DNA of 64,000 bases. Origin: Liolophura sinensis (Eukaryota; Mollusca; Polyplacophora; Chitonida; Chitonidae). Numbering within the stretch: position 1 is the stretch's first letter; the number at the start of each line of letters is the position of its first letter. The notes beneath the pieces are model-generated. The model did not search any database. It was not told the origin of the DNA and worked only from the letters and a program-made list of their open reading frames with translations. The position numbers were made by a program, and so were the translations under genes. Below are positions 34,284 to 55,300 of the stretch, one piece after another. Location of the stretch: the NCBI RefSeq assembly GCF_032854445.1, contig NC_088303.1, positions 29,579,501 through 29,643,500 on the forward strand, given 5' to 3'.

Positions 34284-34360
34284 CTATCTGTATTCTTGCT
34301 TCTCTTTGTTAAGGGCTTGGATGAACTCTTCAAGTTTGTCTTGTATTTGGCGTACTCTCT
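34284..34360 (-). CDS. OPA1: OPA1 exon 29 (last, with stop TAG)
   Basis: Residues 1038-1062: [20 protein letters not shown] then QEYR and stop, the C-terminal helix of the effector domain. The acceptor is TCTTTTCAG. Confidence 0.95.
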
Positions 34361-37300
34361 CTGAAAAGACAACAAATAATAAGTTGCATAAATTCTTTAC
34401 CTGTTATAAGGTGTTGTATTTCTATCACACACCAAGTTGATGCAATTTTTGTAGAGTTCAATTTTAAAATGTGATATAGACTGTGGATATGATGATTTCA
34501 AAAAATTTGGGTAATTTTAATAGGTACATATTCAGGAACATCAGACCAAAGTGTTGGCATGTATTCCAGTCTAAAATACTCTTGTACATCGCAAACAAAA
34601 ATACTAATGGACATCCCAGACCAAAATATTCAAGTGAATCCAAGAATAAATAAGTGTCATGAGTCACAATGCCTTGAATGAGAAAAGAATGTTAGTCGCA
34701 AATGATCAACTTACTCAATTCCTCCGCTAACATTACTCGACGACCTGTCAACAGGTTAACCAGCTTGGATTTGTCCTCACTGAATTCTTCCAACACTTCT
34801 TTTATGTTTCTCTCCATACGTCGTGCTGAAAAAACACACACTAGCCAATCAAGTTCAACAAAAATATTCATTTTAGAAAAAAACAGAAAACAAACAGATG
34901 AAGGGGTAGATTGATAGATTGTGTTACATTACTCATCATTAACTCACAGAAATCCATACTCAGTAATATTCAACTTAAAGGACAGAGAAAAACGATACCT
35001 TCCTGTTCACAATGGAGAATTTTTTCAGAATGTATCACAACTGTGACAACATGACAATATGAGTGAGTTTAGGTCAAGAACGGAAAGTGTAATTTTCCAA
35101 TGTTTTGCATGTTTGACACATCTAAAATCTCATACTATACACGCAGGATATGTCAAAGTTTTAATAAAGATAAAAAATGTCCAAAATGTACAGAATATGC
35201 TCCATGTGTATTAAACGGAACCCAAATGCCACAAATGATTTAGCGTGTAGGGAAGAAAGGTACCTTCATTATTCATGACCTGCTGTCTGAGGGCATTACT
35301 AGTGACCTGTAACATCCGCTGTATCCTCCAGAACAATACCACGTCATTACAATCCAGCTACAACCACAAAAACAAACCTCATTACAATCCAGCTACAACC
35401 ACAAAAATAAACTTCATTACATTCCAGCCATGGACACAAAAACATACATCATTACATTCCAGCCATGGACACAAAAACAAACTTCATTACATTCCAGCCC
35501 TGGACACAAAAACACACATCCTTACATTCCAGCCATAGACACAAAAACACACATCATTACGTTCTAGCCATGGACACAAAACACACTTCATTACATTCTA
35601 GCCATGGACACAAAACACACATCATTACATTCCAGCCATGGACACAAAAACATACATCATTACATTCCAGCCTTGGACACAAAAACACAAATCCTTACAT
35701 TCCAGCCATAGACACAAAAACACACATCATTACGTTCTAGCCATGGACACAAAACACACTTCATTACATTCTAGCCATGGACACAAAACACACATCATTA
35801 CATTCCAGCCATGGACACAAAAACATACATCATTACATTCCAGCCATGGACACAAAAACAAACTTCATTACATTCCAGCCATAGACACAAAAACACACAT
35901 CATTATAATCCAGCCATAGACACAAAAACACACATCATTACGTTCTAGCCATGGACACAAAACACACATCATTACATTCTAGCCATGGACACAAAACACA
36001 AATCATCACATTCCAACCACAGACACAAAACACACATCATAACATTCCAGCCTTGGACACAAAAACACACATCATTACATTCCAGCCATGGACACAAAAA
36101 CACACATCATTACATTCCAAACATAGACACAAAACACACATCATAACATTCCAGCCATGGACACAAAACACACATCATTACATTCCAACCATAGACACAA
36201 AACACACATCATTACATTCCAGCCATGGACACAAAACACACATCATCACATTCCAACCATAGACACAAAACACACAGCATAACATTCCAGCCTTGGACAC
36301 AAAAACACACATCATTACATTCCAGCCATGGACACAAAAACACACATCATAACATTCCAGCCATGGACACAAAAACACACATCATTACATTCCAGCCATG
36401 GACACAAAAACACACATCATTACATTCCAGCCATGGACCCAAAACACACATCATTACATTCTAGCCATGGACACAAAACACACATCATTACATTCCAGCC
36501 ATGGACACAAAACACACATCACATTCTAGCCATGGATACAAAAACACATATGCTTATATAAAGTCAGCATTGCTCATGCTCTCCAAGGTAAAGAGCTAAT
36601 CCCAAAACCAATAAGGGTTATAAGACACCTAACAGATAGCTGGTAATGGCTTCAGTTCAAATGGCAGCCTAAGATGACAGGACATCTAAATTCATATTGA
36701 GCAGGTAGTGTCTTCACGGTGTGCACACAGTGTGAGCATGGGTGAGCATATGCTTCGAGCGAGTGAGTGTTTGCTCAGGGTTTAATGTCGTACTGAACAA
36801 TTTTTCATCATATGACAACTAGGAGTCCTTAGGGTGTGATGCAATGTACCTCCATTTATGCAGGGCAGATTTCCACAGCTCTGTTATCTGGTGCTGCTCA
36901 CCAAGACGACTTGCCAAAATCAAACAAGCCACCCCACCCGACTTATTATACTTAAATGGGTCCACCAGTCATTACACTATCCTCTTGATACTGAGCACCA
37001 TGAAAGGAAGCTGCAATTACCTCCTTTAAAAAGTCTTAGGCACATATGATTAGTATCACAAGTATGATTAAAGACTAAAGTGTGTAATTTTAAACAATGT
37101 TCGGCAATGTGAGTTTAAACAATGTTGTGCAGGACGTCAACACTTTCTTTGGTGTACTGTCGTTGACCCAAAGACAGTACACCAAACAAGAAATCTTAGT
37201 CTGGGACTACATGTATGCTGAAGTTGAATACAAAATTAGCTATAAAGTAATAAGAAGGTGAAAAAAGTCCAAAACATGGTAGTTTTTACCATAATAGAAA

Positions 37301-52300: not shown

Positions 52301-55300
52301 CTGGATAACAAATAAGCCTTCTGCGTGAATTTCATCTCACCTTCATCGCCCTTTTACGACCAGTCTTCTTGTCTTTCAGTAACAGCTGCTTTCTCAGCTC
52401 TCTGTTTTCTTTCTCAAGTCTATCAATTTCTTTCTGGTAGCGAATCTGTGAGAAAAAAGGAAAAAAAATGTTGATGGACTTTGGAAACACCAAGCTCAAT
52501 ATCTGTTTATACCCAAAGAATTGTTATAACTGTGCGATGAACATGCAAAAATGCTATCCAAAAACAAATCTTATCAGGATCGTCAAACATGAAAAAGCTT
52601 ATAATACAAAAAAAAGTGACTCAGAATGCATCTTTTGTTTTCATTATATGCATCATATCTGATTAGTGTTTGGCTGAATTCAAATATTATACCTCATTCA
52701 CACGGCCAAAATTTAATCCCGATCTAATCTGAAATCATTTAAATCAAAGCCAGTTGTAAAAATGCATCCGTTCACACGACCATGTGGCCAAGCTGGTTTT
52801 AAGCCAGTTCAGGGATTTGCCCGTTCACACGGTCACATTTAAGCCGGTTTAGTAATTACGACGTCATCCTGACCTCCATGTACCCGAGGCATTTAATCCT
52901 GTTACCGTTCACACGGCACAGATAAACCGGTTCAAGCCCTGAAACTGGAACCCCGTTCACACGGGCAAAGTTAAGGTGGTTGAGTAATTACCATCATCAT
53001 CCTGACCAGCACATATCCGGGGCATTTAATCCTGTTACCCTTCACACAACACACATAAGCCGGATCAAGACCCCAAACTGGCTTAAAGGCACTCTACAGC
53101 AGGGGGAAATAAACCAGATTAAATACCCTCGCTTTGCGATCACATGAATGACGTCAAACTGGCCCAAAGCCCCTTTCGGATTTAAACAAGCTTAACCCCC
53201 TGTGAACAAAGTATTTTTCACTCATGCGACGACAGCCAGCATTATGGTGGGAGAAAACTGGGCACAGCCTGGGGGAAATCTACCGCCATCTGCAAGTGGC
53301 TTACAGACCTTCCCACATACTTCATATTTATTTCACTAGAACATGTAGGTAAAGAATACAGTAGACAACCTACTTTGACATGGTGGTTTTCATATCGGAA
53401 ACAATCAACCCAGCTTGCCAGGTAACTGACAGATTTCCTAGCTTCCTCAGCATATGCTGAACTATAAAGCATATATACATTCTACTTAAGACAGATATTT
53501 ATTTTTTGTTGTTGTTCTATTTCAACAATCATCCTTCTCACAAAACTTACCTGAACTTGCATCATTTCTTCCTGGATCTGCTCTAGCCTTTGTTTATCCT
53601 GGGACTGAAAATGAAAATGAAACCTCTGTATCAATGTAAAGGTTCAGTTGAACTTGATTTGATTATTAGGGTACTGATCACTGTCATGGAATAGGGCTAA
53701 GGAATCCTCTGCACTCAGACTGAACCCCTGACCTGTTGAAAATAAATGACAAACTTTCCCGTAGGCCTGTGTGATGGAGATTTTCATTCCCAAAATAGAA
53801 CTTCAGATAGAATTGTACTTTAATTGCTAAAGTTTCTTGTTAATGTGTTTCACAGAAACCTTTGGTTACTCACAGTTCTGTATTCTCCTGACAGGCTAGA
53901 TGACCCACTCCCTGCAGGAGGACTTGTTACCGTGGCTACAGTGTTCATGGCGATGCCTGCATCTGTAACACAACTTGATAACTCCATCATCATTCTTAAC
54001 ACTTGTATATGTTAGTACACAAACTGCTTTACCCTATTTCCTTGAATGTTTTTGTACCTAGCAAAGCTGCACATTTTGACACATTAATAAAAATGTATAC
54101 TTTTATTTCTATTTGTATATTTATATGGTTTATTTCTTTATTTATTTGATTGCTGTGCGCCGTACTCAAGAATATTTCACTTATATGATGGCGGCCAGCA
54201 TTATGGTGATTGGAAACCACGCAGAGCCCGGGGGAAAATCCACAATCATCCACAGGTTGCTGGCAGACCTTCCCACGTACGACCAAAGAGGAAGCCAGCA
54301 TGATCTATTTATAACTTCCAAAGTTTGCAAAGTTCCAAAAGTTGGATAATTTAACCATTACAAAATATTTGTGTAAAGAGTAGATTTTGTTGTATCAAAC
54401 CATCTAAATTTCCAATTATATCTGACGTAGTCTACATTTATTTTATTGCTTTTGACTCTTATACCTTAGCCAAAATGATATCATAAAACAACATTTAACT
54501 TGAAAACATGGAATACATTGCAAAGAAACAATGAACTCAAACAAAGATATAAAGGAAATGAAATGAAGTTCACAAAACAAGAAAATCAAAGGTTATTAAC
54601 TAAATGGAACATTTGTCACACTTAATATTATTAACAAAAATTACAATTTTGCTTTACTTACAGAAAACAATCTCATTTGATAATATAAACCAAGCCATCT
54701 TTGACTTAAGTCAAAAGTTCAATCATTAAATTTAGTTTACAACATTCTGTTATTCCAGCTGAAATTTGTCGTTCGATAACTGACCCAGAATTCAGGTTGT
54801 CAAGCAAAATTTTAACCTTGTAACATACACAAGAACAGTTTAAAGTGATCTGAAATTATGACTTAAGTCTAAGATCGCCTCTTGATCCCTGGGCCCCAAT
54901 ACAATCACATCACAACAATGCACGAGGTATAAGCAAACATGCCATCTGTAAACGTGTTGGGAATGTAGCACAAAGCTTTCCAGCCCTAGGTTTGGCAGTG
55001 TGAGGTTGTCTCAATGACTGCCTGACCAGAATGTGCAGAATACAAGAATTTCTCTCTCAGACGTCAAATGTCTTTTGAAAATACAAGTATAAAATATGGA
55101 CTATTCTTCTAATGACTCTGGAGAAACATGAAAAAGGCCTCAAATCATAAAGTGTGGAAAAGTAGTAAAGATACAGCCAGATTGTGGGCTGTCCAATACT
55201 AAATACAAACAAAAGAATTAAAGAGATAGAATTACAAATACCACACTTATTGGCAGTACAAAATTCAATGGCTTAAATTAATTCCGGAAAAAATGGAAAA

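Follow-up and report, generated by a model that had tools for sequence, protein, structure and literature searches.

The window considered here is a stretch of 64,000 nucleotides from the chiton Liolophura sinensis (Mollusca; contig NC_088303.1, positions 29,579,501 to 29,643,500 of the forward strand), part of an assembly that was first published under the name Liolophura japonica and has since been corrected to L. sinensis (PMC12441733). The minus strand of window positions 34284-58155 carries OPA1, the gene of the mitochondrial dynamin-like GTPase, and at four of its splice junctions a minisatellite is found whose units are copies of the junction itself. From the sequence and from AG/GT borders 26 exons, E3 to E29, were located; their numbers follow the model-made first-pass annotation of the window and were not taken from a gene annotation. 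E3 and E4 are included in this placement, which leaves out the initial exons of the gene and an exon that lies between E4 and E6. The 24 exons E6-E29 join into a single open frame of 755 codons, and human OPA1 aligns to residues 2-751 of the 755 spliced chiton residues with E=0, which bears out the identity proposed in the first-pass annotation.

Tandem repeats were located with Tandem Repeats Finder (TRF), and each junction was then aligned to its own flank to establish the relation between unit and junction. All four arrays lie in minus-strand orientation like the gene; in each, the repeated segment straddles a splice junction, with the exon edge serving as the terminal unit. Array 1 (35340-36548; TRF 35 bp x 35) has a unit of about 35 bp, in which about 17 nt of intron, acceptor included, are joined to some 18 nt from the start of exon 27 (35264-35357, 94 nt, acceptor at 35357). 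The copy closest to exon 27 is 33/34 identical, and the remaining copies are as low as 30/38. Array 2 (37965-38613, of which TRF delimits 37965-38581 with a 55-bp unit) repeats the last 18 nt of exon 26 (38596-38712, 117 nt) followed by roughly 37 nt of intron, donor included, and seven more copies beyond the exon edge clear the alignment cut. Array 3 (47780-48556; TRF 45 bp x 17) is built from the last 37 nt of exon 13 (48520-48619, 100 nt) and 8 nt of intron with the donor gttagtac; 16 more copies lie beyond the exon edge, 35/40 to 44/45 identical. The 123-bp unit of array 4 (51422-52131; TRF 51422-52040, 123 bp x 5) consists of 61 nt of intron with the acceptor and the first 62 nt of exon 8 (51397-51483, 87 nt). 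Three of its copies are 112-116/123 identical and one 102/121, and one degenerate copy reaches 52131.

Both types of boundary are hit, the acceptors of exons 27 and 8 and the donors of exons 26 and 13, and across the arrays the units agree with the adjoining junctions at 79-98% of aligned bases. Intron 26 (3,238 nt) holds two of the arrays, 1 and 2, one at each end. Alignment of the units with their junctions confirms the four sources named in the first-pass annotation; the independence of the arrays, whose units measure 35, 55, 45 and 123 bp, is likewise upheld. The same annotation had described the arrays as intronic and abutting the exon they copy; that they adjoin it is correct, but they do not merely abut, the exon edge itself being the last unit. 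The observation is therefore real and slightly stronger than first stated. Two intronic arrays of OPA1, neither assigned a strand, served as controls: one of 22 bp x 3.6 at 45169-45247, placed away from junctions by TRF and the junction self-match scan, and one with a 35-bp unit at 57417-57676, about 340 bp away from the closest exons located.

Because the copied exon ends are part of a conserved reading frame, the exons are the source of the array units. At the copied edges the chiton and human OPA1 proteins agree at 5/6 residues in exon 27, 11/12 in exon 13 and 17/21 in exon 8, but at only 3/6 in exon 26. Copies that have drifted away from the exon sequence lie beside the edge from which they were taken. 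All four copies examined in array 4 carry the same three residue changes relative to exon 8 (D to N, L to F and D to H); the human residue matches the exon at the L to F and D to H positions, and because of this agreement at two of the three changed residues the copies are considered derived. In array 1, 23 of the approximately 35 units could be matched by pattern, the exon's own included, and 20 of these 23 read LEC, as does the human protein. Exon 27 and the single copy adjacent to it read LDC and both retain the acceptor AG, while one unit in the middle of the array also has the D codon and reads LDY. The copy next to the exon is probably younger than most of the array. On these residues the simplest reading would be an older array in which a former sequence of the exon is preserved, and a second, more recent round of copying from the edge. 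In arrays 1 and 4 the copies have changes in common that the exon lacks, as expected if the terminal unit escapes homogenisation; in array 3 one distant copy is 44/45 identical to the exon 13 unit.

Chance resemblance between units and junctions, or an error of assembly, is a highly improbable explanation. The self-match scores of the four array junctions are 80, 80, 63 and 44, those of the other 47 of 51 OPA1 junctions are 26 or less, and a letter-shuffled background (300 shuffles) gave a mean of 18.6 and a maximum of 30. Errors can arise in the assembly of tandem repeats, and one amphioxus array of comparable structure is said, in the excerpted literature, to have been aberrantly assembled in the draft genome. 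Here, by contrast, the copies differ from each other at many sites, and similar arrays occur in other genes on other scaffolds. The excerpted genome report gives high-fidelity (HiFi) reads with a mean length of 8,347 bp at 14x as the basis of the assembly (PMC11068029); with reads of this length, one read should be enough to cover any of the arrays, the longest of which measures 1.2 kb. From the differences between copies and the published read length an assembly error is unlikely.

Splice sites were scored with a matrix built from the other exons of OPA1. In array 3 the intronic cut is exceeded by 15 extra donors, and 13 of these score at least as high as the true donor. Five extra sites are present in array 2; two outscore the true donor, and one of the five is out of register. 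In register, array 4 has two extra acceptors that score the same as the authentic site, a weaker acceptor and one copy without AG, whereas array 1 has two strong and three weak extra acceptors, with 21 of the 23 matched units lacking the AG at the edge. The AG or GT is accordingly retained in nearly all copies of array 3, intact in two, weak in one and lost in one of array 4, mostly lost in array 1 and mixed in array 2. The OPA1 frame closes without any intron between array copies in the one assembled sequence.

These additional sites could be taken as a sign that the arrays are kept for a function, the extra donors and acceptors tuning OPA1 splicing or adding isoforms. The high-scoring decoys of arrays 3 and 4 agree with such a role, as does the frame of array 4, which is open through the copies (51391-51975), each of which would insert 41 residues in frame. 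Use of a distal array 3 donor, on the other hand, is predicted to run into an in-frame TAG, the loss of AG from most array 1 units speaks against maintained acceptors, and the comparable arrays of amphioxus are reported, in the excerpts considered, not to disturb splicing (PMC3087553, PMC3902484). A function of this kind is regarded as very unlikely.

The occurrence of junction arrays elsewhere was surveyed in the genome assembly (609,464,459 bases in 632 contigs, with the window on contig C9). The sample comprised 201 kb in 36 segments on ten scaffolds around exons encoding myosin heads and aldehyde dehydrogenase (ALDH); 132 kinesin matches lay outside it. Among 95 listed matches (81 myosin, 14 Aldedh) 71 were used and 68 had enough flank, giving 136 exon edges; 40 of these lacked a splice site with a score of at least 5 and were not considered, so that 96 edges were scored. 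With a TRF score of at least 50, a unit of at least 12 bp and at least 2.5 copies as criteria, 61 minisatellite arrays were counted, which make up 15.2% of the 201-kb sample; the corresponding value for OPA1 E3-E29 is 14.7%.

By alignment 3 of the 96 scored edges are junction arrays, with 8, 16 and 22 copies including the exon's own, and all three belong to two myosin genes. Two donor arrays at C12:684214-686914, by position in one myosin gene, have 8 copies of 66 bp and 16 copies of a 31-bp unit; an acceptor array in a myosin gene at C2:5378501 has 22 copies of 32 bp. Junction arrays therefore recur independently in the chiton genome. A further edge, at C11:29422443 in an ALDH match, has three copies and a weak donor score (5.0); it possibly marks the 3' terminus of the coding sequence and was excluded from the count as doubtful. 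Two donor arrays near edges (C10:731383 and C4:1247172) were rejected, the exon edge not being copied, and so was the edge C11:2675303, with only 8 matching exon nt and no further copy at the cut used. The first-pass annotation had suggested a property of this genome that seeds minisatellites at splice sites. The three additional arrays in two other genes support the first half of this suggestion, but not the seeding.

Seeding would mean that splice junctions or exon borders actively give rise to minisatellites, for example by breaks, pausing or R-loops at the edges followed by repair with local re-copying. This was assessed from the position of array ends in the sample. Just inside exons (8-60 bp) four ends were found, namely those of the three junction arrays and of the doubtful ALDH edge, corresponding to 0.80/kb; 8-60 bp outside exons there were five (1.00/kb). 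Both near bins exceed the intron 60-800 bp away, where 24 ends give 0.34/kb, a density from which 1.7 ends would be expected inside exons against the four seen. Among the 96 scored edges, array ends are thus no more frequent on the exon side than in the 8-60 bp of neighbouring intron, so that the special seeding at splice sites suggested in the first-pass annotation is not shown. Within OPA1, TRF places 2 ends in the 2,578 exonic bases that lie 8-60 bp from an edge and 1 in the 2,600 bases at the same distance outside; farther out there is 1 end in 3,000 bases at 60-120 bp and there are 7 in 23,770 bases at 120-800 bp. They were rejected as a measure, since two of the four junction arrays are missed in the inside-exon bin, and junction alignment was used instead. 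Point coverage was likewise dropped as a test: 372 of 2042 random OPA1 intron points are locally repeated, compared with 4 of 51 junctions (score of at least 36), a comparison that is biased because hundreds of bases of the intron are taken up by a single junction array. Counts of seeds and of array ends were used in its place.

We prefer an explanation in which tandem duplications occur often and locally in a minisatellite-rich genome and junction arrays arise from them, and some results weigh against it. On both sides of exon edges, array ends are about 2.4 times as dense within 120 bp as they are farther away (13/17.3 kb versus 20/64.2 kb), a ratio to be read with the reservation that the far bins may still include exons without scored edges. 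Mild clustering of array borders at exon borders is possible, and with it some attraction to these borders. When seeds are dropped randomly in OPA1, the probability of four or more junction arrays is 0.0005-0.0085, varying with the small repeats counted, so that four junction arrays among the 6-10 repeats of the gene exceed this null; the values are post hoc, having been computed after the data were seen and on a gene chosen for its arrays. Active seeding also draws on the bare frequency of junction arrays, 4 of 51 junctions in OPA1 and 3 of 96 edges elsewhere, and on array 1, which was apparently copied from the exon at least twice. The lack of a higher density of ends just inside the exon edge than just outside argues against it, as do the choice of OPA1 for its arrays and the fact that, among the 61 arrays, only 13 ends come within 120 bp of an edge that was scored, although this last point is weakened by the exons without scored edges. 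Taken together, active seeding is judged unlikely.

Local tandem duplication with retention of the authentic edge is the explanation that we consider probable. In introns rich in minisatellites a short tandem duplication would now and then take in an exon edge with its splice site, and it would be tolerated where the copy beside the exon body still yields normal mRNA. The extra copies, now sitting in the intron, would be free to drift, expand and contract via slippage or unequal exchange, while selection would keep the terminal, exonic unit constant. Such a course of events should require no special attraction to splice sites.

Several features of the window and the assembly were noted apart from these arrays. 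A minisatellite of about 104 bp, consisting of two halves of about 52 bp, is present in 18.8 copies at 1652-3595; it includes a stop-to-stop frame of 202 codons on the minus strand at 2951-3556, and no gene was identified nearby. At 8495-8792 a 41-bp unit is repeated 7.3 times and holds on its plus strand the donor-like string GTAAGTAACTG, with no exon recognised alongside. A dispersed element with the core CAGCATTATGGTGGG occurs between 676 and 59763 in nine copies within two mismatches, against 0.06 expected, and looks like a short interspersed element; scans for this element gave no viral matches and 13 prokaryote stretches, which were not used as evidence. Frames at 30858-31900 resemble a broken Tc1/mariner transposase, judging by eye from the translation, and the gene on the plus strand at 19332-25433 is one which we take, on the same basis, to resemble myeloid leukemia factor; no TRF arrays are listed around it between 18952 and 25937. 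Besides a mitochondrial contig of 15,209 bases (C632), the assembly contains a contig of 108,685 bases (C99) with seven copies of mitochondrial COX1 about 15.5 kb apart, probably an assembly concatemer of mitochondrial DNA.

Structures of the same kind are known from amphioxus as 'mirages', which the excerpted reports describe as minisatellite-like tandem duplications spanning an intron-exon boundary, either 5' or 3', in the genes for Adh3, the globins BflGb6 and BflGb9, troponin C and PGBD5 (PMC3087553, PMC3902484). According to the same excerpts many copies, though not all, keep AG or GT, normal splicing is reported or suggested, the boundary unit is set apart from the homogenisation of the array, and the mechanism is called unclear; mirages are further presented as a possibly general feature of cephalochordates from which new introns may originate (PMC3087553, PMC3902484). 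As far as these accounts go, the chiton OPA1 arrays resemble mirages in that each unit contains exon and intron sequence of one boundary, the authentic boundary is the terminal unit, acceptor as well as donor boundaries are affected, and AG or GT is retained in many but not all units. Copy numbers differ, with 6 and 3 copies in the BflGb6 haplotypes of the excerpts and about 35 units in array 1 of OPA1 or 22 in a myosin gene of the chiton. OPA1 also differs from the mirages so described in that a single gene carries four arrays, with one at each end of intron 26. In a potato gene, as excerpted, a tandem duplication over an intron-exon boundary created a new intron (PMC4974935). It crosses such a boundary and copies splice signals, as the chiton arrays do; the potato gene gained an intron by it, whereas in chiton OPA1 no new intron was seen and the extra copies remain in an existing one.

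A human minisatellite in G1P3/IFI6 was reportedly described by Turri et al. in 1995 as having multiple splice donor sites, and to judge by the title of that paper alone it is similar to the chiton arrays in offering many donors. No earlier report of such arrays in a mollusc was found in the open literature searched, which consisted mostly of titles and abstract openings, with subscription papers outside its scope; the word minisatellite is absent from the main texts of two chiton genome papers. The OPA1 arrays thus represent a mirage-type structure that is already known from amphioxus and is new to this phylum as far as the literature searches reach.

Mirages in several genes of a chiton mean that the structure is also present in a phylum distant from the cephalochordates. 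A bolder view would hold that exon borders, in chitons as well as lancelets, are true hot spots of minisatellite birth: the edge of the exon would be copied out into the intron time and again, and the resulting arrays would keep older exon ends in fossil form and provide material from which new introns and exons could be made; we give it a small, though not negligible, chance. Independently of this view, older states of an exon edge may be recorded in arrays such as array 1. HiFi and RNA data are publicly available for this chiton, so that the rate at which such arrays arise, the outcome of splicing and the idea of intron gain are testable genome-wide.

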